In this document: positions 1,581 through 27,099 of the stretch, one piece after another
Layout of the letters: the number at the start of each line of letters is the position of its first letter
Numbering within the stretch: position 1 is the first letter of the stretch
Assembly (NCBI GenBank): GCA_016868315.1
Contig: VGHE01000008.1
Location: forward strand, 105,760-169,759
Direction: 5' to 3'
Source: Betaproteobacteria bacterium
GTDB lineage: Bacteria; Bdellovibrionota_B; Oligoflexia; Silvanigrellales; Silvanigrellaceae
DNA: 64,000 nucleotides
Notes under the pieces: generated by a model
Databases searched by the model: none
What the model was told of the DNA's origin: nothing
Seen by the model: only the letters and a program-made list of their open reading frames with translations
Translations under genes and position numbers: made by a program

Positions 1581-1587
1581 GCCCGCT

Positions 1588-4065: not shown

Positions 4066-4092
4066 AACCAATCTCCTCAAAAAACAAAGAAA

Positions 4093-6057: not shown

Positions 6058-7167
6058 TCAGTACCCCATCATGAAGCGCTCGAGTTCAAATCCACTCGGC
6101 TTGAGCTCGAAATTGCGAATGATTTGTTCGCGCACTGTTTCGCTTTTTTTATCTCTTAAAAAACTTTGATGTTGCAGAAGATAGGCCTGCATTTCGTTCG
6201 TCAAAATATAGGGATCACTCGTATCAAATATTTTCGCTACGAAAAATTTGAGTCGCTCGAGGCTGTTCTGACTGTCTCCCAAGGTCTGACCAACCACCTT
6301 CCGAAAATCTTCTGATTGAAAATACAAACCATGCAGAAACTCGTGCGATGGCACCCCGGTAAAAACACTTGGAGCGCTGAAACTCAGAAAGTACTTCCAG
6401 GGCTGAGCCGACATCCAGGACCAAAGCCTTTGCTCATCGGCCAAAGGCTCACCCGCTTGTAACAGCAGCTGAACAGCGATTTCGAAATCCTCTCTTCGTA
6501 AATTCGAGCCCTGCCAGAATCGGAGCAAAGGATTGGTGCGATGCTGCTCAATGGTGAGAATTTTATTCCCCTGTTCAACGTACGATACAACGCGCCCCAG
6601 CGCATAATTGAACTGCCTGTTCCCTTGAGAAACACAAAGCAAGGTTTCAGGAAGCTCTAGTACTGCACCGCAAACCAAATCAATTTCACTGCCCCGCGCT
6701 GCGACTGCTCCCTGCAAACCGATATCAAGCCACGAGTCAATTGGCTGCGCACCAGCGAGCTGCGCAATACTTGGCCATGAATGAGGCTTCTTTGCCTCTG
6801 AAGCCTGCAGCTTCTGCCACTTCTGTTCTTGCTGGGCTTCTTCGATACGCCGCAGGCGCTCACAAGAAAATTCAGAACCCAGGGAACAACTTTGATCCAA
6901 GAAGCGCTTGAATTCGGCCGGGGCTGAGGAGTTCCAGGCCCAACTCACCATGCTCCAATCCACACATTGCTCTGTGGAAGCGGAGGTGGTCTCCCGGCAC
7001 TCCAGCGCCAGTTGCTCGAGCAGGGACTCCTGGTCTCGGACAAAGCTATCGGCTTTAAATCCCTTGGGATTTTTGGGCTTAAAGGGTGAAGCTTGAAGAC
7101 CGACCACCACAGCAACAAGCGAGGCTGCACAAAAAACCAGCAGTGCCAGCAGCCCCTTTTTTTTCAT
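6058..7167 (-). CDS. Exported or membrane-anchored protein of unknown function
   Basis: 369 residues beginning MKKKGLLALLVF with one hydrophobic segment, either a signal peptide or an N-terminal anchor; the rest is soluble and rich in Glu, Gln and Trp. I recognise no domain. The inner ATG is preferred over the TTG seven codons upstream because AAGGGG lies at good spacing before it. The gene is translationally coupled to the MBL-fold hydrolase and diverges from the histidine kinase gene with only about 90 bases between the two starts. Four Cys near residues 50-110 may form periplasmic disulfides. Confidence 0.6.
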   Translation of the reverse strand: MKKKGLLALLVFCAASLVAVVVGLQASPFKPKNPKGFKADSFVRDQESLLEQLALECRETTSASTEQCVDWSMVSWAWNSSAPAEFKRFLDQSCSLGSEFSCERLRRIEEAQQEQKWQKLQASEAKKPHSWPSIAQLAGAQPIDSWLDIGLQGAVAARGSEIDLVCGAVLELPETLLCVSQGNRQFNYALGRVVSYVEQGNKILTIEQHRTNPLLRFWQGSNLRREDFEIAVQLLLQAGEPLADEQRLWSWMSAQPWKYFLSFSAPSVFTGVPSHEFLHGLYFQSEDFRKVVGQTLGDSQNSLERLKFFVAKIFDTSDPYILTNEMQAYLLQHQSFLRDKKSETVREQIIRNFELKPSGFELERFMMGY

Positions 7168-7257
7168 CCTGCAAATACCCCTTACCAACTCGTAAATTTC
7201 GCGGCTGTCCCCTCGACCCCCAGAACACTATTGTGCCCCATTGAGAGACGTAAAGAC

Positions 7258-9678
7258 ATGACGAAAATATTCCGCCAAATAGAACTGCTGACCAAGAGAC
7301 TCAACGCCATTGTCTTATGCCATCTGCCCTTGGTGTTTGCGGGAATCCTTGTTTTGTCAGGCTTCCATGGCCGAAATCTCGGAAACGATGAATTGCGTAT
7401 ATTCTATGCAATGTCTGCAATTTCGTTGCCGCCCCTGCTGCTTGTTTCGCTGCGTCATACATCCAAACCCGAGCAGAACGCCTCCACATTGGAGAGCCTG
7501 TTCTGCCGCATCACGCTGGCTCTCTTGGTGCTCGTTCATATTGTTACCCTCTCGTTTTCTCCGAACGAGATGAACCTTGGATTGGCAAGATTCTTATCCT
7601 CAATCGAGCAGACACTGCTCGTGATTTATATCTTCCAAAAGGTTGTGGAGGAGTTTCCATCGAGATGGTCGCGCCTGGCGCTGTGCGGTTCCTTACTGAA
7701 CGGTTTTCTTGTTTTTGTGATCTCAATTTTGACGTTTGCAACCCGTGATCACGAAAATTACCAGAATCATTTCATAAACACGGTTGAAACGAATGCTGCT
7801 TTAACTTCAATCATCACAATGGTTGTGCTTTATCGTTCAAATTTCCCAAACCGCAACAGCAGACTACACAGCATCATCTGTTATTCCGTGCTGCAGTCGA
7901 GCATTCTGTTTTTTTTCTTTCCGCTGCACTTCACAGAAGTCATTTCTTCGTTGCTGACATCGGGTACTATTTTTGCTCTCTCGCTCGATTTCATTCTGCT
8001 CAAGCCCAGCGTCCTACTGGAAAATGGATTTTCATTCTTAAACCGGCAGAAGGATTTGCATGCAAAGATTGCTAAGGTCAGCAAAGATCTGAAATTGCAA
8101 GAGGAGAAAACAACACGTGTTGAAAAAGAGTTGTCGGACACGGTTTTGCTTGCAGCAGCAACCCTCGACAGCATGTCGGTTCAGGTCTGTATCCTCGACA
8201 CTGATGGTATGATCAGGTCTTCAAATCAGGCCTGGCGAGAATTTCACAAGTCTTTGGGAGTTCAATCTGAGCATTTTTTAACACGCGGATCATACGTTGA
8301 AGGATGCGAAAGTGACCTCACCGCCAACAGCGATTCGCTCAAGAAATCAGCCTTGGAATTCAAATCTGTAATGCGAGGTGAGCATCAGGAGAGCTGCACA
8401 CAGCAGTCGTATTTTTTGGGTCATCAGAAACGCTGGCTGATGTGTCGCATCACTCGTTTCGAATCGAGTCTTGGGCTGCGCTACATGATTGTCCAAGAGG
8501 ACATCACCGAACTGAAACACACGGAAGAAGAACTACGCCTAAAGTCAATTGCGATTGAACGGGCAAATGATGGCATTGTGCTCACCGATCCAAATCTCCC
8601 AGACAACCCTATTGTTTATGTAAGCCAGGGATTTTTGAAGCTCACTGGCTATACGCAAGATGAAGTTATGGGGCGTAATTGTCGATTCATGCAAGGGCAG
8701 GGCAGCGATCCTGAGATGATTCAGAAAATGCGTGAGGCGATTGCTCATGAGCAGTCGTTTGTGGGTGAAATTGTCAATTACCGGAAGGATGGCAAACCTT
8801 GGGTCAACCGCCTCAAACTCGAGCCCGTGCGCAACGAGGAAGGAAGGCTGATTCGCTACGTGGGAGTGCAGCTCGACGTTACCGCTGCAAGGAAGCTCGA
8901 ACGCGAGCGAAAAGCTGCCCTCGAAAAAGAGACCAGCGCGCGCCAAGAAACAGAGCGGCTCTATCGCGAAGCTCAGCAGGCCAACACCATCAAAGATGAG
9001 TTTTTGGCAACACTTTCCCATGAACTCAGAACACCTTCCGGTGTGATTGTCGGTTTCACTGAGCTCTTGAAATATGAAGATATGAATCAGGAAGAGAGAG
9101 ATGAGGCACTCGATGCCCTCGAGCGCAATGCCCGCTTGCTTGTTACATTGATAGACGACATGCTCGACATGAGTCGGGTCATCACCGGAAAATTGAAACT
9201 GAATCCAAAACCGGTAGACCTGGCCTCCATTGTTGAATCGGTTATTGCCGCAGAAACACTCGCTGCACAAACAAAAAACATTCGCTTGGTCACAGAGTTT
9301 GAACCGGGAGCAGGCCCGGTTTACGGCGATACCACGCGTCTCCAACAGATTTTTTGGAACCTTCTCTCCAATGCCATTAAGTTCACGCCACGCAATGGGC
9401 GCGTGAAGGTTTCCGTGAAAAGTGAGGGTTCCCGGGTTGTGGCGCGTGTTATCGACACAGGCGTCGGCATTGAGCCAAAGTTTCTTCCGCACGTGTTTGA
9501 ACGTTTCCGGCAGCAAGAGAGCAGCACAAACCGAAGCTATGGAGGCTTAGGCTTGGGGTTGTCCATAGTAAAACATCTCGTTGAACTCCATGGCGGAACG
9601 GTGGCCGCCGAGTCTGCCGGAGCCGGACGCGGCGCAACGTTTATTGTTAAGTTACCCACCCTGACTTCGGCTGTTTGA
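7258..9678 (+). CDS. Membrane-bound hybrid PAS/LOV sensor histidine kinase
   Basis: 806 residues. The N-terminal about 245 residues hold seven or eight hydrophobic helices. A coiled coil (about 265-305) and a divergent PAS domain follow. A second PAS domain contains GRNCRFMQG, the LOV-type flavin-binding motif, with Cys475 at the photo-adduct position, and ends VNRLKLEPVRNEEG. The kinase core has the H-box SHELRTPSG (His588), N-box LLSNAIKFTP, G1 DTGVGIEP and G2 GGLGLGLSI. There is no receiver domain. Known for the family: LOV kinases sense blue light through FMN. The start at 7258 is chosen because the longer frame would overlap the divergent gene. No response regulator gene is adjacent. Confidence 0.88.
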   Translation: MTKIFRQIELLTKRLNAIVLCHLPLVFAGILVLSGFHGRNLGNDELRIFYAMSAISLPPLLLVSLRHTSKPEQNASTLESLFCRITLALLVLVHIVTLSFSPNEMNLGLARFLSSIEQTLLVIYIFQKVVEEFPSRWSRLALCGSLLNGFLVFVISILTFATRDHENYQNHFINTVETNAALTSIITMVVLYRSNFPNRNSRLHSIICYSVLQSSILFFFFPLHFTEVISSLLTSGTIFALSLDFILLKPSVLLENGFSFLNRQKDLHAKIAKVSKDLKLQEEKTTRVEKELSDTVLLAAATLDSMSVQVCILDTDGMIRSSNQAWREFHKSLGVQSEHFLTRGSYVEGCESDLTANSDSLKKSALEFKSVMRGEHQESCTQQSYFLGHQKRWLMCRITRFESSLGLRYMIVQEDITELKHTEEELRLKSIAIERANDGIVLTDPNLPDNPIVYVSQGFLKLTGYTQDEVMGRNCRFMQGQGSDPEMIQKMREAIAHEQSFVGEIVNYRKDGKPWVNRLKLEPVRNEEGRLIRYVGVQLDVTAARKLERERKAALEKETSARQETERLYREAQQANTIKDEFLATLSHELRTPSGVIVGFTELLKYEDMNQEERDEALDALERNARLLVTLIDDMLDMSRVITGKLKLNPKPVDLASIVESVIAAETLAAQTKNIRLVTEFEPGAGPVYGDTTRLQQIFWNLLSNAIKFTPRNGRVKVSVKSEGSRVVARVIDTGVGIEPKFLPHVFERFRQQESSTNRSYGGLGLGLSIVKHLVELHGGTVAAESAGAGRGATFIVKLPTLTSAV

Positions 9679-12354: not shown

Positions 12355-14541
12355 ATGCACAAACACCGCTCCAGACCCATTTTTACAACGTCCATTCTCG
12401 GTCTTCTGCTTATAACCGCGGGTGGATGTGTGCCGGGCAAAAAAGCTAGCCTAACAAGTGACGCAGGAATTTCTATTCCTCAGGCTGCTTCGGAATTGGG
12501 AATTGAGCCTGATTTTCTGCTCGCCGCTTATTCCAAGAAAAACCTGGAAAAGAGAGCTAAGCCCGGTCAGCTGGTTGCCATGGTCAAGAGTGAGTGGAGA
12601 GACAATCTTCCTCTCAAACTGCGCTCCGGTGATGTGAAGAATTTCCGCAATACAAGTGAATCAGCAAGCATCACTGCGGTCGGTTCGGTTGAGGTCAACA
12701 GCATTAGTGTTGCCAAAAGCCCGATGAAAATTAAAAATCAGAAAAGCGGCTCCGAAAACCAATTCGAAGTCATACGCCTCGACTTGCGCGACATAAGCAA
12801 CGCAGGTCTGAGCAAAGCCATCAACTCTCTGCATGCACTGGGCTCAGTGGTTCTCGCAGAGCCAAACTATGAAATGAATGCCATTGGTGTTCCCAATGAC
12901 CCCCGCTGGCCATCACTCTGGGGTCTGGAGAAAATCGGCGCTCCAGCAGCATGGGATAGCTGGCAAGGAGATTCCAACTTCACCGTAGCGGTCATCGACA
13001 CCGGGATCGATTACAATCATGAAGATCTTAAAGACAGCATTTGGAAGAACACAAAAGAAATTGCGGCAAACAATATCGATGACGATGGCAATGGCTACAT
13101 CGATGACGTGATTGGCTGGAACTTCCACTGGGCCAACAACAACCCAATGGACGGCAACGGACACGGTACCCACTGCGCTGGAACAGTTGCAGGCAAAGGT
13201 AACAACGGCGTCGGAGTTGCAGGTGTCAGTTGGAATGCAAAACTGATGCCCGTGAAGGTTCTGAGTGACAGTGGTTCGGGCTACAACTTCGATATCTACG
13301 AAGGCATCATGTATGCCTTGAACAACGGCGCAAAGGTCACAAGCAATAGCTATGGCGGCGGCGGAGCAAGCTCGCTGATGGCAACAGCACTGACAGCGGC
13401 TAAAAACAAGGGTGTTCTATTTGTTGCTGCTGCGGGCAACGAATCCGCTGCGACCTCGAGCTATCCAGCCTACTACAGCAAAACCTATGACAACGTTTTA
13501 TCGATTGCATCTACAGACAAGCTCGATGCGTTGTCCTCATTCTCTAACTACGGTGACGGTGTAAATATCGCTGCCCCTGGAAGCGACATTGTTAGTACTG
13601 TTCCCAACAACGGCTATCAATCCTACAGTGGAACCTCGATGGCCACACCCCATGTGGCGGGTCTGGCAACTTTGATTTGGAGCAAAAACCCCAATCTAAC
13701 TTACCTTCAAGTCAAAGATGCTATCCTCACAACAGGTGATGCATTGCCCGCACTGGTCGGTAAAGTGGATACCGGAACACGCATCAATGCCAAGAAGGCG
13801 CTCGATAAAGTGAGTGTATCGCCCTCGCCCACTCCAGCACCTACAACACCTGCTCCGACTCCAACTGCTGCACCAACCACGGCAGCACCAACGCCTGCGC
13901 CCACAACGCCTGCGCCCACAACGCCTGCGCCCACAACGCCAGCCCCTACTCCGGCACCAACAACACCTGCACCAACAGCAACGGCTACACCCACTCCCGT
14001 GCCGACAACTCCGGCACCAACGGCAACGCCGACACCCGTGCCTACGACTCCAGCACCCACAGCAACTCCAACGCCTGTGACGACAACTCCGGCGCCAACG
14101 CCCACCCCGGCATACAAGTCGGGAGTTCAATACTCCTACTTCACAACTGCCGTCACATGGTCAGACATTCCCAACTTCGACCGCATGGCACCCTTGAAGC
14201 AAGGAGTGATCGCCAACTTTGCAGTCGGCCAGAGAACACAGACAACCAACTATGGGTTCAGCTTAAAGGCCTTTATAAAAGTTCCACGCAATGGAACCTA
14301 CACGTTCTTCACATCATCCGACGATGGAAGTCGCCTGTGGATCAACGGTACGGTAGTTGTTGAAAATGGCGGAACGCACACACTGCGTGAACGCTCAGGA
14401 ACAATAAATCTGACTGCTGGTTACCACGCGATTCGCGTGGATTACTTCCAGGGAACTGGAAACCAGGGACTCACAGTGAGCTACCAGGGTCCACGCATTA
14501 CCAAACAGAAGATTCCAAACTCTGCGCTGTTCTACCAATAA
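12355..14541 (+). CDS. Subtilisin-like (S8) lipoprotein protease with Thr/Pro linker and PA14 domain
   Basis: 728 residues. A signal peptide ending in a lipobox-like GGC is followed by an inhibitor-like propeptide region (about 60-180). The S8 catalytic domain has Asp215 in VIDTGID, His270 in GHGTHCAG and Ser428 in SGTSMATPHVAG, so it should be active. Residues about 491-586 are a Thr/Pro/Ala repeat spacer, and the last about 140 residues are a PA14 domain (FFTSSDDGSRLWINGT, YHAIRVDYFQ), a carbohydrate-binding fold found in many secreted enzymes. Expected to act at the cell surface or outside the cell, possibly tethered to glycans or prey/host surfaces. A GAGGT ribosome site precedes the ATG. 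Confidence 0.92.
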   Translation: MHKHRSRPIFTTSILGLLLITAGGCVPGKKASLTSDAGISIPQAASELGIEPDFLLAAYSKKNLEKRAKPGQLVAMVKSEWRDNLPLKLRSGDVKNFRNTSESASITAVGSVEVNSISVAKSPMKIKNQKSGSENQFEVIRLDLRDISNAGLSKAINSLHALGSVVLAEPNYEMNAIGVPNDPRWPSLWGLEKIGAPAAWDSWQGDSNFTVAVIDTGIDYNHEDLKDSIWKNTKEIAANNIDDDGNGYIDDVIGWNFHWANNNPMDGNGHGTHCAGTVAGKGNNGVGVAGVSWNAKLMPVKVLSDSGSGYNFDIYEGIMYALNNGAKVTSNSYGGGGASSLMATALTAAKNKGVLFVAAAGNESAATSSYPAYYSKTYDNVLSIASTDKLDALSSFSNYGDGVNIAAPGSDIVSTVPNNGYQSYSGTSMATPHVAGLATLIWSKNPNLTYLQVKDAILTTGDALPALVGKVDTGTRINAKKALDKVSVSPSPTPAPTTPAPTPTAAPTTAAPTPAPTTPAPTTPAPTTPAPTPAPTTPAPTATATPTPVPTTPAPTATPTPVPTTPAPTATPTPVTTTPAPTPTPAYKSGVQYSYFTTAVTWSDIPNFDRMAPLKQGVIANFAVGQRTQTTNYGFSLKAFIKVPRNGTYTFFTSSDDGSRLWINGTVVVENGGTHTLRERSGTINLTAGYHAIRVDYFQGTGNQGLTVSYQGPRITKQKIPNSALFYQ
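13827..14112 (+). repeat. Low-complexity Thr/Pro/Ala-coding tract (TPAP repeats)
   Basis: About 290 bases of imperfect tandem units such as ACGCCTGCGCCCACA encode repeating TPAPTT and ATPTPVP units, the flexible linker between the protease and PA14 domains of the subtilase. Three near-identical copies lie at 13905-13945. The tract produces long spurious open frames on both strands because stop codons are absent. Such tracts change length by slippage. Confidence 0.9.
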
Positions 14542-15802: not shown

Positions 15803-16492
15803 TTATAAGTGTTCAATGTTTTTACAGTGTTCAAGCAGCTTTGTGCCCCGGAGCACAGAGCGTCTCACGGCGGTGCCTAAATCGGGCTCCACAAACTGTA
15901 CCCGAAAACGCTCGCGGTGCTCGAGACATTCCCAGATAGCACCGGCGCACATCGGACAAGGCTCAAGAGTTGTAACGAGTCGTGCATCAACCGGAAGAGG
16001 CCTGCGCTCTCGCTGCCACCACGCCTGCAAGAGATTCATTTCTGCATGCTGAAGTCTATTACGCCCAGAAGAGTTGGAGGCACAGCCCAAAAGCCGCCCT
16101 TTTGAATCAATCAGCCACGCCTCTATGGAACGGTCACGTTGATACAGAGCAGCACTCTCTGACGAAGGCGTGAGGCTCGGAGACAAACGATTCGAGTGCT
16201 CTTTGCCAACCTGAACAGCGCGGTCGGCGGCCTTCATGCGACTCACTGCATCTTCCGGCGCCTGGGCTAATCGAGTTATGCGCTTTGCACAGACAATCAC
16301 CGCACCCCGACACAGTGCTGTGGGTTCGTAATCAATAAAAATTCGGCTTCTCAAAATAAAGTGGGCAAGACCAGGATGACTTTTCCAAATACCTTCAACC
16401 AAGCACGTGACAGCCGTGCGTGGCTCGAAGGGTTGACGGGTGTAAGTGCACCAGTAAATTGTGCCATTCCACTCTAGCCAGGCCCGTGCCAT
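15803..16492 (-). CDS. Bd3614-like cytidine/tRNA-adenosine deaminase-fold protein
   Basis: 229 residues. The C-terminal half has the zinc-dependent deaminase signature: HAEMN (zinc His and catalytic Glu) and TLEPCPMCAG (two zinc Cys), so it should be a working deaminase. An unfamiliar N-terminal about 90-residue region precedes it. The architecture recalls the Bd3614 family described from Bdellovibrio. Substrate is unknown; the family is related to TadA and CDD enzymes. It is the last gene of the leftward operon, starting 5 bases after the permease stop, which ties it to the ABC exporter and biosynthetic genes, possibly for nucleobase-like substrates or product modification. Confidence 0.72.
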   Translation of the reverse strand: MARAWLEWNGTIYWCTYTRQPFEPRTAVTCLVEGIWKSHPGLAHFILRSRIFIDYEPTALCRGAVIVCAKRITRLAQAPEDAVSRMKAADRAVQVGKEHSNRLSPSLTPSSESAALYQRDRSIEAWLIDSKGRLLGCASNSSGRNRLQHAEMNLLQAWWQRERRPLPVDARLVTTLEPCPMCAGAIWECLEHRERFRVQFVEPDLGTAVRRSVLRGTKLLEHCKNIEHL

Positions 16493-16497
16493 TCAAC

Positions 16498-17706
16498 TCA
16501 ACCCACCTGTCGCAGCGCATGGCTGATAGGCATCCGCAAGACCTTCAAGGCCGCAAGAAGACTACCCACAACAGCTGCGACGAGAACTAGAAAAGCAGCC
16601 TCAATTGCCATGCCCGAGTGAAGCTGAATGTACGTTTTGAAGGAACGGGTGATTCCAGGTCCAGGGGGCATGTAGAATCCGTCACGCAGAATCGTCATGT
16701 TGAGGAGCACCACCACCAGCAGTCCAATCAATGCACCTGCTGCCGCTGCAAACGCGCCTTCCAACGCAATGAGGCTCAGGATGTCTTTCTTTGACTCACC
16801 ATTAGCGCGCAGCATGCCTATTTCCTGAGTGCGCTCGAGAATCGCAGAAGTAGCCGTGTTAAAAACTCCGAGAATCACAACAAAGAGAATGATGGCGCGC
16901 ACGATAGCGTATTGCGCGTTGAGAAAATCTACAGAGTTTTGATAGTAGATTTTGTCGAGAATTTCGAAGGGAGTGGCTTCGAGTCCGGAAAAAGTCGCAC
17001 GGATGACCTGCTCAACACGTGCCCAATCTTCGTGGCGCGCAAGTCCAAGGGAAACCTTCTCGACCTTTTCGGTATCCAAAAGTCTCTGCGCGTGCGGAAG
17101 CTGGATCTGAAAAAAGGAATCATCGAGCTCTCGTGAACCGGTATGAAAAATGCCCACCACTTCAAGGTCTGCGCCGTTCAACGTGCCATGAATCGTATTC
17201 GACAAAAGAGTTACACGCTGCCCAACTTGCAGGTCGAGGGAGTGAGCAAGACCACGCCCCAGCACAATTCCATCCTCTGCATCACGCAGTGGATTGCCTT
17301 CAACAACATTAATTGTGTAGAAAAATTCGCTTTCTGCCGCACCATCAATCCCTACACCTCTAGCGCCCAAGGAACGAGTTCCGTTCGAAACCAAGGCAGA
17401 AAATTCAAGGCGCGGAAAAACCTTTTCAACACCAGGAATCTTCAAAAGGTTTGACAGAACCTCTTGTGGATTTTGGATCCAAGCCTCCCAAGGCTTAGCA
17501 AGAACTTTGTCGCGGTAGCCGATGGTATTGACCTGACCATTACCGTAATGAGCATGCACAGCATTGTTACGGTATTCATTGAGTAGGCCAGTATTGAATC
17601 CGCGGAAAAGAAAAAGTGCTGCTGTACCGACTGCTACCGTTGCGAGTGTCACAGCAGTGCGTCTTTTGTTTCTGAGGAGACTCCGCAAAGCGACGGTCAG
17701 TAGCAT
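16498..17706 (-). CDS. ABC transporter permease, FtsX/MacB-LolCE type
   Basis: 402 residues starting at ATG with GGGGGAG upstream, one base after the ATPase stop. Layout: N-terminal helix (LLRNKRRTAVTLATVAVG), a large periplasmic MacB_PCD-like domain (about 45-265), then three C-terminal helices around IILFVVILGVFNTATSAILERTQEIGMLRANG, the FtsX signature region. Together with the adjacent ATPase it should form a MacB/LolCDE-like mechanotransmission transporter that moves lipoproteins, peptides or lipids out of the inner membrane rather than importing. Its place in a biosynthetic-type operon suggests product export. Confidence 0.87.
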   Translation of the reverse strand: MLLTVALRSLLRNKRRTAVTLATVAVGTAALFLFRGFNTGLLNEYRNNAVHAHYGNGQVNTIGYRDKVLAKPWEAWIQNPQEVLSNLLKIPGVEKVFPRLEFSALVSNGTRSLGARGVGIDGAAESEFFYTINVVEGNPLRDAEDGIVLGRGLAHSLDLQVGQRVTLLSNTIHGTLNGADLEVVGIFHTGSRELDDSFFQIQLPHAQRLLDTEKVEKVSLGLARHEDWARVEQVIRATFSGLEATPFEILDKIYYQNSVDFLNAQYAIVRAIILFVVILGVFNTATSAILERTQEIGMLRANGESKKDILSLIALEGAFAAAAGALIGLLVVVLLNMTILRDGFYMPPGPGITRSFKTYIQLHSGMAIEAAFLVLVAAVVGSLLAALKVLRMPISHALRQVG

Positions 17707-17707
17707 T

Positions 17708-18388
17708 TTACTTCTCCCCCAAAAGCTGGCCATCCCTGAGCCGCAAAACTCTGTCTGCCATGTTGATAGCCTGGTGATCGTGGCTTGCCATAATAACCGT
17801 ACAACCATGCTCACGGCATAATCGAACCAGAAGCTGCAAGATATCTGAGCCCGTTTTTGAATCTAGGTTTGCGGTCGGCTCATCAGCAAGAATCACCTTG
17901 GGCTGCTTGGCGAGGGCGCGCGCAATGGCAACCCGCTGCCGCTGACCACCACTCATCTGACCTGGTCGCTTGTGGGCATGATCCGCGAGTCCAACCCACT
18001 CGAGTGCAGAACGCACAAGTAGCTTCCTCTTTTCCTCCGGAACCTCCTGACGCGCCAGAAAATATTCAACATTCTCTTCAGCAGTCAAAACATCAATGAG
18101 AAAAAAACTCTGAAAAACAAAACCGATCTCAAATCGACGAATACGATTGAGTTCTATTTCCGAAAATTCAGAGATGAGCTGTCCGCGATATTTGATTTGC
18201 CCCTGCTGCAAGGGCTCAATGAAACCGAGCAGATTCAAGAGCGAGGACTTTCCTGACCCCGAGGCACCGGCAAGACAAGTGAACTTGCCTGTCTCAATTT
18301 CAAAATCTAACTGCTTGATCGCCTCGACGCGCACATCGTCCATGATGTAGGACAACGACACAGACTTACCCTGAAACAGCGATTCCAT
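17708..18388 (-). CDS. ABC transporter ATP-binding protein, LolD/MacB type
   Basis: 226 residues with Walker A GASGSGKSS, Q-loop, signature MSGGQRQRVAIARAL, Walker B VILADEPTANLD and the switch His in MASHDH. Size and motifs match the LolD/MacB class that energises FtsX-type permeases. The ATG follows GGGGGAGG. It sits between the PEP-utilising enzyme (22-base gap) and the permease (1-base gap). Confidence 0.92.
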   Translation of the reverse strand: MESLFQGKSVSLSYIMDDVRVEAIKQLDFEIETGKFTCLAGASGSGKSSLLNLLGFIEPLQQGQIKYRGQLISEFSEIELNRIRRFEIGFVFQSFFLIDVLTAEENVEYFLARQEVPEEKRKLLVRSALEWVGLADHAHKRPGQMSGGQRQRVAIARALAKQPKVILADEPTANLDSKTGSDILQLLVRLCREHGCTVIMASHDHQAINMADRVLRLRDGQLLGEK

Positions 18389-18410
18389 GACCTCCCCCTA
18401 ATGCTCTTCA

Positions 18411-21188
18411 TTATTGCTCGGAAACACGATCTGCCTCTGGGAGAATACGCACCTCGCCGCGCGCTGCATCCATGCGAACCCGCATTCCGGTCTTGAGACG
18501 ACTCACAAGTCCACCTCGGATACCCACAATTGTCGGAAGACCCAATTCACGAGCAACCACAGCAGAATGCGACAGAAGGCTGCCACGCTCAATCAAAAGC
18601 CCACTGCAAGCGGGATACAGAGGCACCCAGCCTGGGTCAGTTCGTTCTGTGACAAGTATTTCGCCATTTAAACCCTGAGCATCCTTCATCGAGTGGACAA
18701 CACGCACAATCCCCTCGACCACACCAGGACAGCAGGCCGTGCCCAGCAGAACATTGGGATCTGTTGAAGCAGGAAGATCCTGCGCAAGCAAATCGTTCCC
18801 TGCCAGAATCTCAGACCACTTGAATGACGCGCCTGCTGCTCCACGGGTCGTAAAACGGTCGGGAGGTGGCGGAGTGCGTCGATACTCTTCGAACTCAGCC
18901 TTACGCACTTGCGAGAGGCTTCTGAGCTGCAGACTCGAGGCTCGCCCCTCAACGTATGAAATGATTTCTTCGATATTGAGATAAAACACATCCTGTGTCG
19001 CATCCAGAACACCCAGCGCGTGCAAATTTCTGCCAAAACCTCGAAACAGATGCCGCACAATTCCAAAGCTTTTTGTTCGGTCAAAACGGAGATTCTCTCG
19101 ATCGCGCACCGCGCTGCGCGCATTCCGGAGTACGAACCAAAAAACCGGACGCTTCAAAAATCCAAACAGACCACCGAGCTTTTCAGCTGCAAGCGCCTCG
19201 GCCTTGTGGAGAATTTCCTTCTCGCGCGCTTCCATTTCCTCTACGGAGTAACTCTTCATTCGAACGTAGCTCCCCACGGCTTCGAGTGCGAAGCTAGGGT
19301 CATCGTGCAAATCCGGCTCCTCAAGTTTCAGCTCATTGACGCAACGAAAGCCATAGAGATCAAGAAACTCCTTAAACTTCAAATAAAGCTCGGGAAAAAC
19401 TCCGTGCTCGAACATCTCCTGCCATGCCTGCTGTGCCGTTTTGGACAGGAACCAGCTGCGGCGGTTCTCCGGGCCGTTATCTATCTCTTTGGCAATGCGC
19501 ATCAACATTCGCGTTGGCTCAGTGCTTTCCAAGTCTCCCTGCCCACATAACAGATCATTCTGCAGGGTTGCCGAGTCAGCCCCCGCAGACAGCCAACGTG
19601 TGGTGAGCGCCTTGAGCAATCCGAAAAAAACCATGCAACGGGTGTCGTTTACAATGGGTGCCTGCCAGTGTTTCAGAACACGCTCGGTCAGTGAATGATA
19701 GTAGTTGACCTGCTCCTGCAGAGACATACGCGCAAAGTTTGTATGGCGACCCTCAGCAACAATGGCATCAACGCGTTGTTCAAATGCAGTCACAAGACCA
19801 CGAATAAAGATGAGACGATAGACAACTGAGAACAACAGGCGCAGACGCGCAAAGACCGAATACTCAACAGGATTGCGGGTGAAATCGAAGAGTGCAGCAA
19901 TCTCTGGCTTGAGGTTTTGCTTCACACCCATCATGGTTTCCATGAAAGACTTGCTCTGCGCAGTCCCTGGAAACAGGTAAAGCAGCCGATACCAATTTGC
20001 GAGATTGTAGTAAACGCGCCCGCGCACCAGCCCGAGCATATTGCGGAAGGTCGCTTCATTTTCGGCAATTATTTTTTCTGGAACAAGCATCAGCCGACAG
20101 AACTGATAGTATACCTCCTGATAGCAGCGACTCACATGACTGAACGTCAGTGGCGTAGTGACACCACAAAAGCTCTCGATGATGTTTGAGTTATCCCAAA
20201 GAATATATCCCCCGCCCGCGCACTTTTCGTCGAACAGTCCATCAGGTGGAAGTGTTGTAATTGGGCGAGCTTGAAGTAAGTAGAGTTGCCCTGCCACCAA
20301 CGCCCACTCAATATCTTGTGGATGTTCGAAACGCTTCTCGACATCTAGAACGAGCTTCGAAATATTTTTGACTTCAACCGGCGATAAACTCGATTTGTTC
20401 ACAAGCTCCCCGGCCACAGCAACTTCCCGCAAACCTCCCTGCGGAGCCGCACGCAAGGCCTTTTGCTTAGCCACGATCTCCTCTTTGTAATCCAGGTTCC
20501 GTCTGTGCACTTTGAACTCATCAGCCGGCAACAAACCGCTCACAAGACCCTCACCCTGTCCCCAGACACTGCTCACAAGGAGATGGTCGCGATCGTTAGG
20601 GTCGACTGCATTACGAGAAAAAGCGACACCAGAAGCCTCGGCATCGACCATGCGCTGAATCACAACTCCAACTTTAATTCCGGTGAGCGGAAGATTACGC
20701 TCTTTACGGTATGAAAGTGCGCGTTCTGACCATCCGGAGGCCCAACAGCGCAGAACACTTTTGAGAATTTGTTCGGAACCTTTTTGGAAAAGAAAAGTTG
20801 AAAACTGCCCAGCAAACGAATTCTCCGCCGAGTCTTCATCGAGGCCACTGGAACGCACAGCCACGAAGCAGCTGATAAGACCATTGCGCTCGAGTTCTGC
20901 AACAAGCTCTTCGCGCACATCGATGGGAATGGGTTGCGAGAGGAAAAGCTCCTCAACTGCCTTTTCAAGGTCTGCGAAGTTTTGCTCATCAGACTGCAAT
21001 TGCTTATTCAACCCGTGCTGTGTGAGGAACTGGTCGAAAGCATCGACACCGAGACAAACCCATTCGGGTACAGGAAAGTTTGACTGCGAGAGTCGAGCTA
21101 GGTTGTATGCCTTCCCCCCGCCGAGCCGCTTCACTTCTTCCGGGCGGGTCAGAGAAGTCAACACATAGCGCGCATTCGACTCATTCAT
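18411..21188 (-). CDS. PEP synthase / rifampicin-phosphotransferase-like enzyme
   Basis: 925 residues in the three-part layout of PEP synthase, PPDK and rifampicin phosphotransferase: an ATP-grasp-like PPDK_N domain (VAVRSSGLDEDSAENSF near residue 115), a long middle region, and a C-terminal PEP-utilising swivel domain with GSLLSHSAVVARELGLP, where His874 is the predicted phosphocarrier. There is no C-terminal PEP/pyruvate TIM barrel, so it resembles rifampicin phosphotransferases, which move the beta-phosphate of ATP onto a small-molecule hydroxyl, more than central-carbon PEP synthase. Here it lies 16 bases behind the OleC/UbiA fusion gene, suggesting a pathway-specific phosphorylation; substrate unknown. 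Confidence 0.8.
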   Translation of the reverse strand: MNESNARYVLTSLTRPEEVKRLGGGKAYNLARLSQSNFPVPEWVCLGVDAFDQFLTQHGLNKQLQSDEQNFADLEKAVEELFLSQPIPIDVREELVAELERNGLISCFVAVRSSGLDEDSAENSFAGQFSTFLFQKGSEQILKSVLRCWASGWSERALSYRKERNLPLTGIKVGVVIQRMVDAEASGVAFSRNAVDPNDRDHLLVSSVWGQGEGLVSGLLPADEFKVHRRNLDYKEEIVAKQKALRAAPQGGLREVAVAGELVNKSSLSPVEVKNISKLVLDVEKRFEHPQDIEWALVAGQLYLLQARPITTLPPDGLFDEKCAGGGYILWDNSNIIESFCGVTTPLTFSHVSRCYQEVYYQFCRLMLVPEKIIAENEATFRNMLGLVRGRVYYNLANWYRLLYLFPGTAQSKSFMETMMGVKQNLKPEIAALFDFTRNPVEYSVFARLRLLFSVVYRLIFIRGLVTAFEQRVDAIVAEGRHTNFARMSLQEQVNYYHSLTERVLKHWQAPIVNDTRCMVFFGLLKALTTRWLSAGADSATLQNDLLCGQGDLESTEPTRMLMRIAKEIDNGPENRRSWFLSKTAQQAWQEMFEHGVFPELYLKFKEFLDLYGFRCVNELKLEEPDLHDDPSFALEAVGSYVRMKSYSVEEMEAREKEILHKAEALAAEKLGGLFGFLKRPVFWFVLRNARSAVRDRENLRFDRTKSFGIVRHLFRGFGRNLHALGVLDATQDVFYLNIEEIISYVEGRASSLQLRSLSQVRKAEFEEYRRTPPPPDRFTTRGAAGASFKWSEILAGNDLLAQDLPASTDPNVLLGTACCPGVVEGIVRVVHSMKDAQGLNGEILVTERTDPGWVPLYPACSGLLIERGSLLSHSAVVARELGLPTIVGIRGGLVSRLKTGMRVRMDAARGEVRILPEADRVSEQ

Positions 21189-21204
21189 GTGCTGCTCTCC
21201 AATT

Positions 21205-23532
21205 TCAATAATTCAAAAGTGTAAGAACACCCATCCAAGCCGAGGCCAAGACAGAGAGTGCTGCGAAACCTTCTGCAGGCTTGTGCAAACCATCGCGCAG
21301 CGAGTGTAACAAAACCACGAGCACAGTTGGAATCTGCACAAGCGCCAAAACAGCAATAGACGCGAATTCATTGCGTGCAGAAAAGACAAGCATAAGCGCA
21401 CCAGCTTGAAAAACAACAGCGACACACGCAGCAGGCTTGAGTCCGTAGATTTGCCTGTAGGTCTGTGCAGCCGGATGCGCATCTGGTTTGAGTTTTCTTG
21501 CGAACTCGTAGGAAAGCGAGGCTATGACATTGAGGCTTACAAAAACCCAAGCCAGCCGCTCTCTGGCAAACTCAGGAGAGAACAAGGTCACTCCAAAAAG
21601 ATATAATGGAATACCGACAGCCTGGTGCGACAAAGCATAAACGAATGGAAAACTTGCAAGCTTCTGGCCGATATAGAACTCTTTGTACATAAGCCAGAGG
21701 TAGATTGAAGAGAGAAGAAAAAGCGAACCTGCAAGGTTTGATACAAAAACGAACAGCGAAACCCCAGCCAGCATCAAGAGTCCCATGACCACGCGGATGC
21801 CTACTTGCATTTCCGGTGCGGAAATAAGCCCACGCGGCAGAGGACGGGTTGGATTAGCCAGCTTGTCCTTCTCGAAATCCTTGATTTCATCCATCATGCG
21901 CGCGGCAATCATAAACAAAACGGAGGCAACAACAGCGACGCTCCCCCCCGCGAAGACACTCAAACCGCTGGGACACCCCTGTGGTGCAGAGCAGAATCCA
22001 CGCCCAACAGTAAACAAATAGGCGCTCACAACAGGACCCAATGCCAAAAACACAAGAACTGCGAGCGGACTTCGTTCTTTAAGATAGATCCACCAACGCA
22101 ACATCATTAACCCCTTTTCCCAGATGGCAACGCGATCGATTCGAGCCCTGTGGCGACGATCCCGAGTCAGCACTGAAGTCAACACCGTTGGCTTTTCACC
22201 CAACAACTCGCTGGCCGATTTTTCCACATGTCGAGCATCATCATCGGCAATCAACAATGGACGGCTGTTGTTGTCGCGTCTCAAGAAGCACCGTGTATGA
22301 CCCAAGCGCGCATAAAGTTTCTGCTCGAAGAGAAAATCCTCTAGCGGCTGCCCTTTTCGTCCCATGTACCAAAGCCCATCGGTATCGCTGATCACCCGAT
22401 CGCCCATGCAATGCCAAAGTGTTCCGTTCTGATCTCGTTCTTTGTTTAAAAATGTATCTTTTGAGTTGCCGAGGTATTCCGGACAAACATTTACACCTGC
22501 AACCCACAGCACGGAGTCATCTGCAAAGCGCACGCTTAACTCTGGAATAGGATGACCCACATTGAGTGCATGCATGAATCCCTTACGGCGAGAGTTCTCA
22601 AGGGAGAGCCGTGCATCAATGAACGCAACCGGCTCGACTTCTGTTCCACCATAAATCTGGCGCACCTCAGCACGTGGTAACACCCTCAGAGCTCGTTCAA
22701 GCAACTCACATTCAACCAGTGCACCGCCAACATTAATGTGTTGCAAAGATGCAAACGCTTTGTTGTGGTCGAGAATATGCCGCAGGACCGCAGGCCCACA
22801 CGAGAGCGAGCGCGGCCAGAGTGACTTATGGAGTGATTCAATCCGTGTAAGAGCACTCACCGACCAGTTGGCGGGAAGCAACAGCGAGCCACGCCCTGTT
22901 CCCAAGTGATACAGTGCGAGATTTGGAAAAACAGCGAGGTCTGGCTCCTCGATTTTGTCGTCTTGCCCGTACTTTTCGAGAATTTCGTGCAGCTCCCACA
23001 AATACGCATGGCTCCGCACCACACCTTTGGGAATGCCCGTTGTTCCCGTAGTGAAAGAAATTGTTGCCGGGAGTTGCGCAGAAATTTCCAAGACCTGAAA
23101 CTGGGAGGCATCGGTTGAAAGAATCGTATCCGGCGACAAATACACTGCCCTCAGCGACCTCAGACTCGAACTTCTTAAGCGCCAAAGCCAACCAAAACGG
23201 TCGAAAAAAGCGGCCTTAACATTTACGAGCTTGAGTACGTGTTCAATATGTTGGGCAGGCATCCAGGGCTCAACGAAGACAATACCTACCCCCAATCCCA
23301 ATAATCCTAGAAGCGCTGCATAGAGCTCTGCTCCAGGCAATGCCATGACCAGCGCAGTATCACCAGGCTGCAATCCCACCGACAAAGCAGCCTTTTGACG
23401 CGCTGCGGCGCGCTCTCCCATCTCGCGAAAGCTGACCACACCGTCACGCATTGACCACAATGCAAGTTTCTCAGGGTGAGCTGCGATGCGCTGCAAAACC
23501 CTGATCGAGCAATTTCCGTTCGGAGCAGGCAC
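21205..23532 (-). CDS. Fusion: OleC-like adenylating enzyme + UbiA-type prenyltransferase
   Basis: 775 residues from GTG with GGAGG four bases upstream. Residues 1 to about 470 are an ANL adenylating domain (ISFTTGTTGIPKG P-loop, QIYGGTEVE, MGDRV). Its C-terminal subdomain DRRHRARIDR resembles OleC-type RHxAKIxR, but the catalytic Lys position reads Arg. From about residue 480 comes a UbiA membrane domain with eight or nine helices and the Asp-rich motif MMDEIKDFEKDK (near 545-556) followed by NPTRPLPRGL; the second motif is partial (RKLKPDAHP). UbiA proteins join prenyl or related lipid groups to aromatic or sugar acceptors. The fusion implies that acid activation and prenyl transfer act on one substrate at the inner membrane. 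Confidence 0.82.
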   Translation of the reverse strand: MPAPNGNCSIRVLQRIAAHPEKLALWSMRDGVVSFREMGERAAARQKAALSVGLQPGDTALVMALPGAELYAALLGLLGLGVGIVFVEPWMPAQHIEHVLKLVNVKAAFFDRFGWLWRLRSSSLRSLRAVYLSPDTILSTDASQFQVLEISAQLPATISFTTGTTGIPKGVVRSHAYLWELHEILEKYGQDDKIEEPDLAVFPNLALYHLGTGRGSLLLPANWSVSALTRIESLHKSLWPRSLSCGPAVLRHILDHNKAFASLQHINVGGALVECELLERALRVLPRAEVRQIYGGTEVEPVAFIDARLSLENSRRKGFMHALNVGHPIPELSVRFADDSVLWVAGVNVCPEYLGNSKDTFLNKERDQNGTLWHCMGDRVISDTDGLWYMGRKGQPLEDFLFEQKLYARLGHTRCFLRRDNNSRPLLIADDDARHVEKSASELLGEKPTVLTSVLTRDRRHRARIDRVAIWEKGLMMLRWWIYLKERSPLAVLVFLALGPVVSAYLFTVGRGFCSAPQGCPSGLSVFAGGSVAVVASVLFMIAARMMDEIKDFEKDKLANPTRPLPRGLISAPEMQVGIRVVMGLLMLAGVSLFVFVSNLAGSLFLLSSIYLWLMYKEFYIGQKLASFPFVYALSHQAVGIPLYLFGVTLFSPEFARERLAWVFVSLNVIASLSYEFARKLKPDAHPAAQTYRQIYGLKPAACVAVVFQAGALMLVFSARNEFASIAVLALVQIPTVLVVLLHSLRDGLHKPAEGFAALSVLASAWMGVLTLLNY

Positions 23533-23682
23533 ACGGCCTCCAAGACCTCAGATGAACCTTCGAGGTGTCGGGCAATTTGCTGAAAACTTTAAAATAAAGA
23601 AGGAAATTTAAAAAACAGCTTTTGTCACAGAGCTTTTGTTCCGAATACCCGCAACGTCGGCACGATGAGCAAGGATAGCATC

Positions 23683-24663
23683 ATGACTTTACCTGACTTA
23701 CGAACAATCGCTGAAAACGCACAAAAAGATGCCTACAGCATTGATCGTATTCAATGGCACAAGGGCGTCGATAGCCAACGCCATTATTTTCCTGAAATCC
23801 TCACGCCGCTGTACCACTGTGCATCCTACAGAACTGTTCTCGATGACTCCGATAGGAAGCTCTACAACCAGCTCTATGCGCAGTACATCAGTGAACAGTT
23901 CATCTTTCTTGAGGATCGTTTTTTGTGTCGGGTGGTCGAAGGCCTATTGCCCTGGGCTGGGCAGGTTTCTTGGGACTTGAAACGCTGCCTTGAAATTTTT
24001 CTGGAAGAGGAAGTTAAACATACGGAGATGTTCCGCAGATTAAACCGCCTCTGCAACCCTGAGGTTTACGGGCAAAGTGATTTTCGATTCCTCCAGCTGC
24101 GCCCTCTTGAAAACAAATTAATAGAAACCATGTCCAAATATCCAAAGGCTCTCAACTTCTGGATATGGATTGCACTCCTGTTTGAAGAAAAGACGATTGA
24201 CTGTTTTACTCACTACAGAATGCAACAACGCGATGACCAGGCTCAGAAGGTTGATCCGCTGCATTATCAGGTGCACCAGTTTCACATGCTCGATGAAGCA
24301 AGGCATGTGCAAATCGATGAACACTTGTTGCATTATATTTTCAACAAAGCCAACCCGTTTGTGCGACAAATGAATATCGCACTGCTTAAAAAAACGATGT
24401 CAAATTACACAAATCTAAAGCGCGCGAATATTATGATTTTGGAACAACTATGTCAGGTGCAAACTCGGCTCCGGTCGCAGGTTGCGCGACTCTCAGATGA
24501 AGTCCGTGCCCAGAATGGCCAAGCTGATTACCAAGTCGCACAATACTCTCGCAAAAACTTTCCAAAAACCTTTTCTTACTTTGATGCAGCCCCCGATGTG
24601 CGCAATGCCATGCGAAAAGTCATACTCACATATCATCCGCAAGAGGAGAGTCTTTCTGCATGA
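23683..24663 (+). CDS. Di-iron oxygenase-like protein (AurF / ferritin-like)
   Basis: 326 residues; the ATG at 23683 is preferred over the in-frame ATG six codons upstream because AAGGA lies at correct spacing only for the inner one. A mostly helical protein with carboxylate/His metal motifs LEEEVKHTEMF and DEARHVQIDEH, plus Glu residues on intervening helices (FLEDRF, FEEKTID), the pattern of AurF-like (PF11583) di-iron N-oxygenases and related ferritin-like enzymes. It probably uses O2 to oxidise an amine or C-H bond. It is divergent from the OleC/UbiA fusion and leads a three-gene operon, suggesting an oxidative tailoring step in the same pathway. Confidence 0.72.
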   Translation: MTLPDLRTIAENAQKDAYSIDRIQWHKGVDSQRHYFPEILTPLYHCASYRTVLDDSDRKLYNQLYAQYISEQFIFLEDRFLCRVVEGLLPWAGQVSWDLKRCLEIFLEEEVKHTEMFRRLNRLCNPEVYGQSDFRFLQLRPLENKLIETMSKYPKALNFWIWIALLFEEKTIDCFTHYRMQQRDDQAQKVDPLHYQVHQFHMLDEARHVQIDEHLLHYIFNKANPFVRQMNIALLKKTMSNYTNLKRANIMILEQLCQVQTRLRSQVARLSDEVRAQNGQADYQVAQYSRKNFPKTFSYFDAAPDVRNAMRKVILTYHPQEESLSA

Positions 24664-24690
24664 GCCAGAATCGAATCGAGGCCGCAAACA

Positions 24691-25770
24691 ATGCCGCGTA
24701 ACATAGAAATACACAGACGCTCTGAAGCTCACGCGAGGCAGGAATTCGACTCAGCCTTCAGCACCTATATTTCAACGGCCATGAAGAGCTCTGACGACGC
24801 AGTTAACCTGGAGAGGCAGGGCTACAGCAAATTCGCTTTGAATTACGCCCAAACGAGAGAGTGTGAATTCTGGATGGCAACCGACGCCCACAGCGGAGAT
24901 GTTATTGCCCGTCTTGGAGCAGACTTCAGCAAATCCATGGAAAATTTGGGCAGCGTAGGTTTTTTTGACTGCGAACCTACACCTGTAGGCAAATCCGCTG
25001 CAGTTTCGCTCTTGGCCAATGCCTATTCATGGCTGAAGGAAAAAGGAGCCTGCGCTGCAGTTGGTCCGATGGACTTCAACAGTTGGTTCCAATATCGCTT
25101 TAAAGTTAAGAATCACGAGAGCGCCATCCCTGATTTTCCCTGGGAGCCTCCACCCTGCGATTTCCATCTTGAGCTTTTCAAAGAGAGCGGATTCTCTGAG
25201 CACATTCGGTACTCGAGCTTCTTCTTCGAACTGCCTTCCCTTGACCTTTGGGATGCCTACATTGCGCGGCTCGAAACTGACCACAAACGTGTTCTTGCAA
25301 GCGGGTATTCAATCACTGGAATCCGCTGGGACGAGAATTTAGAGCCCGACCTGCGAAAGATCTTCATGCTGCTCAATCGTGCGTTCGCGCAGAGCCCCAT
25401 GTTTGAGGAGATCCCATTTGAAGTTTTTTCGGCGATGACCCTCTCCACCCTCAGGTCGAAGAACTGCGCAGGTTCGAGCCTCTGCTTTTCACAGGAGGGT
25501 GAGCTTGTTGCTTTTCTCTTTTCCTTCGTCAGCCATGACACCGCAATATACAAGACGATTGCCGTGCACCCCGACTTTCAATCCTTGGGCATTGGCAACG
25601 CACTCACCCTGGAACTCTGCAAAGCCTGCAGGCAAATGGGACTCTTGAAGAGTGCAGGAGCCCTGATTCGCTCCGGAAACAATAGCGAGATGATAGGCCG
25701 AGGTTTTGCAAAATTCGCCGCTGCATCTGGTCTGAATGAATATATTCTCATGCGGAAGGATCTGCTGTGA
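24691..25770 (+). CDS. Long GNAT acyltransferase (YghO-like)
   Basis: 359 residues. The C-terminal third has a GNAT acetyl-CoA-binding signature IAVHPDFQSLGIGNAL. The N-terminal part carries GPMDFNSWFQYRF and PPPCDFHLELFKESGF, a layout seen in the YghO-like long GNAT family, which is often found near lipid or natural-product genes. It should acylate an amine or hydroxyl of a small molecule. It starts 27 bases after the di-iron gene and overlaps the next gene by 4 bases (GTGA). Confidence 0.72.
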   Translation: MPRNIEIHRRSEAHARQEFDSAFSTYISTAMKSSDDAVNLERQGYSKFALNYAQTRECEFWMATDAHSGDVIARLGADFSKSMENLGSVGFFDCEPTPVGKSAAVSLLANAYSWLKEKGACAAVGPMDFNSWFQYRFKVKNHESAIPDFPWEPPPCDFHLELFKESGFSEHIRYSSFFFELPSLDLWDAYIARLETDHKRVLASGYSITGIRWDENLEPDLRKIFMLLNRAFAQSPMFEEIPFEVFSAMTLSTLRSKNCAGSSLCFSQEGELVAFLFSFVSHDTAIYKTIAVHPDFQSLGIGNALTLELCKACRQMGLLKSAGALIRSGNNSEMIGRGFAKFAAASGLNEYILMRKDLL

Positions 25771-26204
25771 ATGCATTTCATAAGAACATCATTTTGCTCT
25801 CTACTGCGAGTTGTTTTGTTTCGGCAACAGCGAGCGCTTTGGACTTTGGCAAACCGGTGCGGGCAGGTTTCTCCTTCGGTGCCATCCGCACCGGGGGCGC
25901 TGCAATTTCGGTCGATACTGGAGCACTTTTTAATAGCAACATCAGCGCGGGATTTGAGTTTTTTAACCTCAATCTTGTGTCATTGCGGGCATTGATGTGG
26001 GAGCAGCCCGGAAACATGTCGGGTTTCAACGGCGGTGCAAAACTTTACCTCGGATTAGGATCAAAGTTTGCCCTCGAGCCTGGTGCCGAAGTGGGATGGA
26101 CTTACAGAATGAAGAACCGCATTGACGTCGGTGCCGGAATCGATCTTGTGTTTTCTGACTCCATTGGAGGGTCAATTAAAATTGGAGCCGGTCTGTTGTT
26201 CTGA
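25767..26204 (+). CDS. Small exported beta-barrel-like protein
   Basis: 145 residues. The GTG start overlaps the GNAT stop (GTGA) and has AAGGA six bases upstream. A signal peptide ends near ASALDF; the mature part is short alternating strands rich in Gly, Phe and Leu, ending in GAGLLF with terminal Phe, typical of outer-membrane barrels. About 120 mature residues would allow an eight-strand barrel. Translational coupling to the GNAT gene is notable and suggests an outer-membrane partner for the pathway product, by position only. Confidence 0.55.
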   Translation: MNAFHKNIILLSTASCFVSATASALDFGKPVRAGFSFGAIRTGGAAISVDTGALFNSNISAGFEFFNLNLVSLRALMWEQPGNMSGFNGGAKLYLGLGSKFALEPGAEVGWTYRMKNRIDVGAGIDLVFSDSIGGSIKIGAGLLF

Positions 26205-26280: not shown

Positions 26281-27099
26281 GTGGCTTTTTGCAAATTGAG
26301 GCTTGCATGTGGGTCGATTTTTCTGCCTCTCATCTGGTCATGTGCTAACCCTGGCCAAGTTGCGGAAGTCAGCAACACGCGCGGTTTCGAAGTTGTCTTG
26401 GTTGCACTCCAATCAAGCGTCATTAAGGACTCCACCGAACAATCTATGAGTCTGGATTCCCACCGGAAATGCAAAATTGTTGTTGGTGAATCTATCCAAC
26501 TTAAAGAAGAGCCAAAGCTTGTCCAGACCGACAATGGCCCCCACTACAAAATCACACTGCTTCCGGAGCAACAGCTCAGTGCCCCTTGCCGCATAGAAAG
26601 CGCTTACGTCTTTGCGTCTCACTTTCGGCAAGAATTGTTTCAGAGTGGAACAAGAAATCCGAGCAGCCCTGCCCCAGATGTGCCTCAACAGTCACCATCG
26701 CCGGGATCACAGAATGCAGAGCAGCGGTTCGCCTGGCCGACGCAATCGGGGGTAGTGACCTCAGGTTTTGGTCAGCGTTTTGGTGTTCTGCATGAAGGTA
26801 TCGATATTGCCTTACTCACAGGCTCACCCATCTTGGCATCGGCTGCTGGTCACATTGCGTTTGCCGGATGGAGTTCTGCCGGCTTTGGAAACCTGATTCG
26901 ACTCGCGCATCCCGACAATTTCGAAACACGTTATGCGCACAACTCTGACCTCCTCGACATGACTGTTGGAAAAGTGATTCTGGCCGGCGACCAGATAGCA
27001 AAAAGTGGAAACACCGGACTCTCAACAGGCTCACACCTGCATTTCGAAATCAGAACCCGAGGCAAAGCCGTGGATCCAATGTATCACTTGCCTAGGTGA
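26281..27099 (+). CDS. M23 (LytM-type) peptidoglycan endopeptidase lipoprotein
   Basis: 272 residues from GTG with GGAGGT five bases upstream. Lipoprotein signal (lipobox WSC), a N-terminal region of about 110 residues, a Pro/Ser spacer, then the M23 domain with zinc ligands His171 and Asp175 (HEGID) and His252/His254 (HLHFE), all present, so it should be active rather than a degenerate LytM activator. Expected to cut peptide crosslinks in the periplasm. It is followed closely by an exported unknown gene. Confidence 0.92.
   Translation: MAFCKLRLACGSIFLPLIWSCANPGQVAEVSNTRGFEVVLVALQSSVIKDSTEQSMSLDSHRKCKIVVGESIQLKEEPKLVQTDNGPHYKITLLPEQQLSAPCRIESAYVFASHFRQELFQSGTRNPSSPAPDVPQQSPSPGSQNAEQRFAWPTQSGVVTSGFGQRFGVLHEGIDIALLTGSPILASAAGHIAFAGWSSAGFGNLIRLAHPDNFETRYAHNSDLLDMTVGKVILAGDQIAKSGNTGLSTGSHLHFEIRTRGKAVDPMYHLPR

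Follow-up and report, generated by a model that had tools for sequence, protein, structure and literature searches.

Several described systems resemble individual parts of the locus presented here. The bacterial ceramide pathway (Spt, AcpR, AasR, Epi and YghO/bCerS, with the CpgB kinase) employs a YghO-type N-acyltransferase next to ligase, short-chain dehydrogenase/reductase (SDR) and lipid-kinase classes, and it is YghO itself that acts as ceramide N-acyltransferase in the sphingolipid set of E. coli (PMC9386255). Lipoprotein transport by LolCDE and LolA relies on an ABC ATPase, FtsX/MacB_PCD-type permeases and the LolA carrier, and BtaA is the DUF3419 enzyme of betaine lipids. Members of several of these classes occur in the genome analysed here, whose window, a stretch of 64,000 nucleotides (assembly GCA_016868315.1, contig VGHE01000008.1, positions 105,760 to 169,759 of the forward strand), belongs to contig C8. 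This genome comprises 3.2 Mb in 27 contigs and is assigned to the Silvanigrellaceae, with an uncultured Silvanigrella metagenome-assembled genome (MAG) as its nearest named relative. Two divergent operons at positions 15803-26204 of the window comprise eight open reading frames (ORFs), all of which are present, and Pfam and NCBIfam matches back each named domain (PF14439, FtsX and MacB_PCD, ABC_tran, PPDK_N with PEP-utilizers, AMP-binding with UbiA, PF11583, and GNAT). The gene set has five core enzymes, namely an adenylating ligase, a UbiA-type transferase, a dikinase related to rifampin phosphotransferases (RPH), a GNAT acyltransferase and a DUF3419 protein. With a probability of roughly 55%, the window carries half of a split biosynthesis-and-export set for an undescribed lipid, probably of the outer membrane or cell surface.

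The arrangement of the window genes is not due to chance, since two congeners share the synteny of the minus-strand operon and have AurF next to it, with GNAT following in the one whose contig extends further. In these congeners, G049 (locus L022) and G048 (locus L023), the deaminase, permease, ATPase, dikinase and ligase-UbiA fusion genes occur in the same order with 52-83% identity, and the AurF gene is divergent from this operon in both; the L022 contig stops inside AurF, while in L023 AurF is followed by GNAT and, immediately afterwards, by an M23 peptidase gene. When GTDB genomes were scanned with a profile of the fusion, 59 loci emerged. Bdellovibrionota contributed most of them, others came from Gemmatimonadota, Caldilineaceae (Chloroflexota) and some Pseudomonadota, and the verrucomicrobial and chlamydial members were weaker. 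Clustering of all ORFs neighbouring the scan loci defined recurrent families, with counts of up to 62 loci: dikinase (62), AMP ligase (61), separate UbiA (49), GNAT (45) and DUF3419 (40), followed by DAGK (22), SDR (18), P450 (18), AAR-like reductase (17), ABC ATPase (12) and FtsX (9). A conserved operon of AMP ligase, UbiA, RPH-like dikinase and GNAT thereby extends across about 60 loci from several phyla. The initial annotation had argued for joint function, and the preserved gene order bears this out: on the same strand, UbiA precedes the dikinase as a separate gene in 43 loci and within a fused ligase-UbiA gene in 12, the ligase precedes UbiA in 39 and the dikinase precedes GNAT in 35, so that the genes clearly co-occur in relatives. 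The same data show that the fusion is not what is novel about the set. Ligase and UbiA are fused in the window genus and are separate neighbours in most relatives; because they adjoin as separate genes elsewhere, the fusion is a local coupling of two adjacent genes and not a new enzyme in itself. In a tree of 54 dikinases, built by a quick method and containing several long branches, the window sequence and its congeners fall inside a mainly Bdellovibrionota group. Regarding the taxonomic labels, locus L077, from a record titled Nitrosovibrio sp. Nv4, has a neighbourhood that nearly matches that of the Bdellovibrionales MAG L071, and its contig may be misbinned.

The second half of the gene set is encoded on a different contig of this genome, C6, and the cluster boundary originally drawn around the window genes was therefore too narrow, as it left out a reductase, a lipid kinase, DUF3419 and a LolA-like protein. 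Co-occurrence was evaluated with Fisher tests among 56 genomes of the class, 19 with and 37 without the dikinase. DUF3419 (PF11899, the BtaA-like S-adenosylmethionine (SAM) aminocarboxypropyl-transferase family) is an almost obligate partner of the dikinase set, being present in 19/19 dikinase genomes versus 4/37 others (p=2e-11) and, at genus level, in 10/10 genera with the dikinase versus 3/19 without (p=1.4e-5). The window genome encodes its copy at C6:52117-53073 with a PF11899 score of 90.8 bits against a cut-off of 28.2, and its likeness to BtaA is that of this family match alone. On one side of the gene is that of an AAR-like reductase and on the other that of a LolA-like protein (PF17131, LolA_like); a lipid kinase of the DAGK type is encoded upstream and a DUF1302-like candidate outer-membrane protein downstream, and this arrangement recurs in congeners as far as their contigs reach.

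The AAR-like reductase is likewise enriched, occurring in 10/19 dikinase genomes versus 2/37 others (p=1e-4). A family model built from relatives fits the acyl-ACP reductase 6jzq and the carmabin reductase domain (Z 31-33); residues 328-687 of the modelled relative L053:1138-3258, which belongs to the same family as the 704-aa reductase of the window genome, align with 6jzq_B at Z 31.8 and a root-mean-square deviation of 3.1 over 329 residues. The fold matches of this family cover residues 323-689 only, and not the N-terminal 320. A different reductase appears in 6/19 dikinase genomes in the form of an extra HMG-CoA reductase fusion, and not one of the 19 carries both it and the AAR-like enzyme (0/19, p=0.003). 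In L028 (12715-15552), L031 and L036, the core operon has beside it a gene that joins HMG-CoA reductase to an APH-type phosphotransferase domain. HMG-CoA reductase as such was rejected as a pathway marker since a housekeeping copy exists in 55/56 genomes of the class, and only the extra fused copies are informative. At the level of loci, the overlap of the two reductases is 0 of 7 and 16, a sample too small to weigh, and significance was reached by the genome-level comparison only. As either alternative supplies a thioester reductase together with a kinase, these few and related genomes suggest a pathway requirement for a reduced, phosphorylated alcohol.

Among the core enzymes in the window, the 775-aa fusion protein (21205-23532, minus strand) joins an AMP-forming ligase (about residues 1-470; PF00501, E=4e-30) to a UbiA-type prenyltransferase domain (about residues 476-775; PF01040, E=3e-10, 40.1 bits against a cut-off of 34.2). 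The ligase shares the ANL fold and intact A3 and A5 motifs with OleC and PRK09274 enzymes, and the designation OleC given in the initial annotation holds at superfamily level only. Scores of 77 and 62 bits against the OleC equivalog models lie far under their cut-offs of 900 and 850, the PRK09274 model gives 168 of 478 bits, and the set contains no OleA, OleB or OleD partner. In addition, the catalytic A10 lysine of ANL enzymes is replaced by arginine at residue 464, as in 56/62 relatives; the copies with lysine are divergent ones, including the verrucomicrobial copy, and that of Roseinatronobacter. One divergent cluster variant (L034:9099-11621 and L035:9235-11757) encodes an 840-aa ligase that keeps the A10 lysine, has an extra N-terminal part of 280 residues and adjoins a formyltransferase-like gene, UbiA and the dikinase. 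The best PDB match of the UbiA domain is 6m31, digeranylgeranylglyceryl phosphate synthase, an archaeal ether-lipid prenyltransferase. The window domain shares the UbiA fold and the first, Asp-rich motif (RxMDExKDxxKD...RPLPRG, invariant) with this enzyme, ChlG and EboC, and differs in its second motif, a conserved ExxRKL (in full ExxRKLxP), and in its listed scores, which are far under the curated cut-offs.

The 925-aa dikinase (18411-21188, minus strand; PPDK_N and PEP-utilizers) possesses the ATP-binding and swivelling histidine domains of RPH and PEP synthase-like dikinases, among them PigC and RedH, and the SH-motif histidine of the swivelling domain, H874, is invariant in 13 relatives. 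It scores below every curated NCBIfam cut-off (Rph 315/999, RedH 365/1350 and PRK06241.2-2 860/883 bits), and its context lacks rifamycin or prodigiosin genes. The closest solved structures are 5hv1 and 5fbs, which we take to be rifampin phosphotransferases, labelled PEP synthase by their depositors. Distant dikinase relatives also occur on plasmids of Streptomyces clavuligerus and S. durmitorensis (L139 and L140), where the surrounding AfsA-type gene sets include an isoprenylcysteine methyltransferase-like gene. This suggests that several small-molecule pathways employ dikinases of this class.

On the plus strand, the AurF-family di-iron protein (23665-24663; PF11583, E=1e-14, 54.9 bits against a cut-off of 29.6) and the GNAT N-acyltransferase (24691-25770) belong to the pathway. 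The GNAT family is the one found beside the dikinase in about 45 loci, and its profile aligns with E. coli YghO over the full length, including the N-terminal half (319 columns, probability 98.4%, 17% identity). Close relatives of the AurF-family protein are confined to dikinase genomes (6/6, p=8e-4), and its gene lies directly 5' of the GNAT gene in G046 as well. Residues E116, H119, E175, H207, E211 and H214, together with E77/E83, are invariant among 6 sequences and correspond to a di-iron ligand set, and no PDB profile match was obtained for the protein. P450s adjoin the core in other lineages and never share a locus with AurF; a P450 in the window's own version of the pathway was rejected, as the genus has no close P450.

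Export was part of the initial reading, and the ABC-FtsX pair, located beside the core enzymes here and in other loci, agrees with it. In the window, the pair consists of an FtsX/MacB_PCD permease (16498-17706, minus strand; PF02687, PF12704) and an ATPase of the DevA/LolD/MacB type (17708-18388, minus strand; ABC_tran, E=2e-32). This LolCDE/MacB-like pair would be the exporter that matches the LolA-like half on C6. LolA-like proteins adjoin ABC-FtsX genes in several loci (L053, L058 and others), and the window genome encodes one at its second locus. In still other loci the exporters are of the MMPL type, and no locus combines MMPL with FtsX. Although the ABC ATPase, the FtsX/MacB_PCD permease and the LolA-like protein recall LolCDE-LolA transport, the window encodes, together with biosynthesis genes, only one permease, which reaches 97 bits against the LolCE model TIGR02212 (equivalog cut-off 362).

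Based on these enzyme classes only, the best reading of the product is an N-acylated, aminocarboxypropyl-bearing lipid delivered to the outer membrane. The AAR-like reductase would convert an acyl thioester to an aldehyde or alcohol, and the lipid kinase, the dikinase or both would phosphorylate an alcohol. DUF3419 may transfer the 3-amino-3-carboxypropyl group of SAM to a lipid acceptor in a BtaA-like manner, leaving a free amine and a carboxylate; by analogy with ceramide synthase, GNAT would N-acylate this amine. The ligase would activate a carboxylate and UbiA would add a prenyl or alkyl chain, both being physically coupled in the fusion, whereas oxygenation would be a tailoring reaction of the AurF-type enzyme or, in other lineages, of a P450. 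Finally, transfer of the product to the outer membrane would fall to the ABC pair together with the LolA-like carrier. The sequence in which these steps are given implies neither order nor substrates. More tentatively, and at odds that do not favour it, the set could define a new class of bacterial outer-membrane lipids present in several phyla, in which a homoserine-type aminocarboxypropyl unit from SAM bears an N-acyl group and a prenyl or alkyl chain, and which has its own LolA/LolCDE-like or MMPL delivery.

Several points weigh against the proposed outer-membrane lipid. The product and all enzyme activities are predictions, DUF3419 homologues may use non-lipid acceptors, and arginine at A10 may weaken adenylation, leaving the role of the ligase uncertain. 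ABC-FtsX or MMPL exporters are near only 22/62 loci, the fold prediction for the AurF-family protein had a mean predicted local distance difference test score of 38 and was not used, and the genomes of the co-occurrence sample are related, so that the p-values overstate independence. Among other explanations, the production of a diffusible specialised metabolite, such as an antibiotic, signal or pigment that is secreted by a MacB-like ABC pump and does not reside in the membrane, survives best and is still unlikely. AurF and P450 enzymes are natural-product tailoring enzymes, the P450 being closest to terpene oxidases, the dikinase counts the prodigiosin ligases RedH (365 bits) and PigC (329 bits) among its relatives, as the reductase does PigE (162 bits), and the distribution is patchy, all of which would suit such a metabolite. 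However, the LolA-like carriers, the DAGK-type lipid kinase, the YghO-like acyltransferase, DUF3419 and the MMPL exporters point to a lipid, and neither polyketide synthases or nonribosomal peptide synthetases nor a carrier protein were seen among the annotated recurrent neighbours.

A variant ceramide or sphingolipid pathway, with some other route in place of serine palmitoyltransferase, is improbable. The GNAT resembles the ceramide synthase YghO, and Caulobacter and E. coli sphingolipid operons contain counterparts of the AMP ligase, the SDR and the lipid kinase (PMC9386255), yet the ligase and SDR are only superfamily-similar to AasR and the epimerase, and UbiA, the dikinase and DUF3419 have no place in ceramide synthesis, nor does the known pathway include an AAR-like reductase. 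The ordinary ceramide pathway was rejected because the window genus lacks serine palmitoyltransferase, with no Spt-like protein at E<=1e-30 in three congeners. Equally hard to sustain is a single pathway formed by all eight genes, as the initial annotation had it, deaminase and barrel-like ORF included. The tight spacing in the window would fit this view, as would the fact that the Bd3614-like deaminase gene (15803-16492, minus strand; PF14439, E=6e-26) adjoins the permease in all three congeners. The deaminase is nevertheless distributed independently of the pathway, exceeding the cut-off in 6/19 dikinase genomes versus 10/37 others (p=0.76), occurs in relatives without any pathway gene and lies apart from the pathway in G046; it is probably a passenger that may be co-transcribed with the pathway genes in the window genus. 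The 145-aa ORF (25767-26204, plus strand), with a probable signal peptide, is not conserved, being missing from L023 and having no relative, and has no Pfam or NCBIfam match, so that its description as barrel-like remains a guess; it is probably outside the pathway. That the neighbours are unrelated standalone genes brought together by chance is extremely improbable, as nothing was found in favour of it and it is contradicted by the conserved order in several phyla and the strong phylogenetic co-occurrence.

The tight gaps described initially were confirmed with one correction. The permease almost certainly starts, judging by its start codon context, at the ATG at 17706 (after GGGGGAGAA) and not at the GTG at 17814, and there is therefore no overlap between the permease and ATPase genes. 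Gaps in the minus-strand operon then measure 5, 1, 22 and 16 bases, those in the plus-strand operon 27 and -4 bases, and the operons are separated by a divergent intergenic region of 132 bases (23533-23664), by position alone the putative site of both promoters. Downstream, window positions 26281-27099 encode an M23 peptidase (ActS/NlpD-like); its counterpart in L023 follows GNAT with a 4-base overlap, and the plus-strand operon may thus extend into cell-wall genes. On the other side, a subtilisin-like protease (12355-14541), whose long linker consists of Pro/Thr/Ala repeats, adjoins the cluster in both congeners, too.

The gene set is also present in a cultured alphaproteobacterium, Roseinatronobacter sp. 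S2, whose plasmid NZ_CP121116.1 (L138) carries six tandem genes at 523-8507 for UbiA (P8S53_RS20230), the dikinase (P8S53_RS20225), DUF3419, a 439-aa membrane protein, a GNAT belonging to the window's family and the AMP ligase. A membrane protein family shared by Gemmatimonadota and Roseinatronobacter (L075:9093-10664, L062:10197-11576 and L138:4932-6251) displays the motifs KxxH, DAAAxxGxxYG and KSxEG; by eye, its members resemble phytol/dolichol kinases, which serves as a lead only, as they matched no library. Each of the enzyme classes is already known, and a search of the open-access literature, with most subscription papers outside its coverage, gave no description of the set as a whole, its conservation or its split layout, in keeping with the earlier remark that no named pathway holds these genes. 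An enzyme set common to relatives of predatory bacteria, Gemmatimonadota, Caldilineaceae and some Pseudomonadota, which pairs a SAM aminocarboxypropyl-transferase family with a ceramide-synthase-like acyltransferase, a UbiA transferase and a dikinase, points towards an unrecognised lipid or lipid-like compound, and the plasmid operon of Roseinatronobacter sp. S2 makes the question directly testable in a cultured host.

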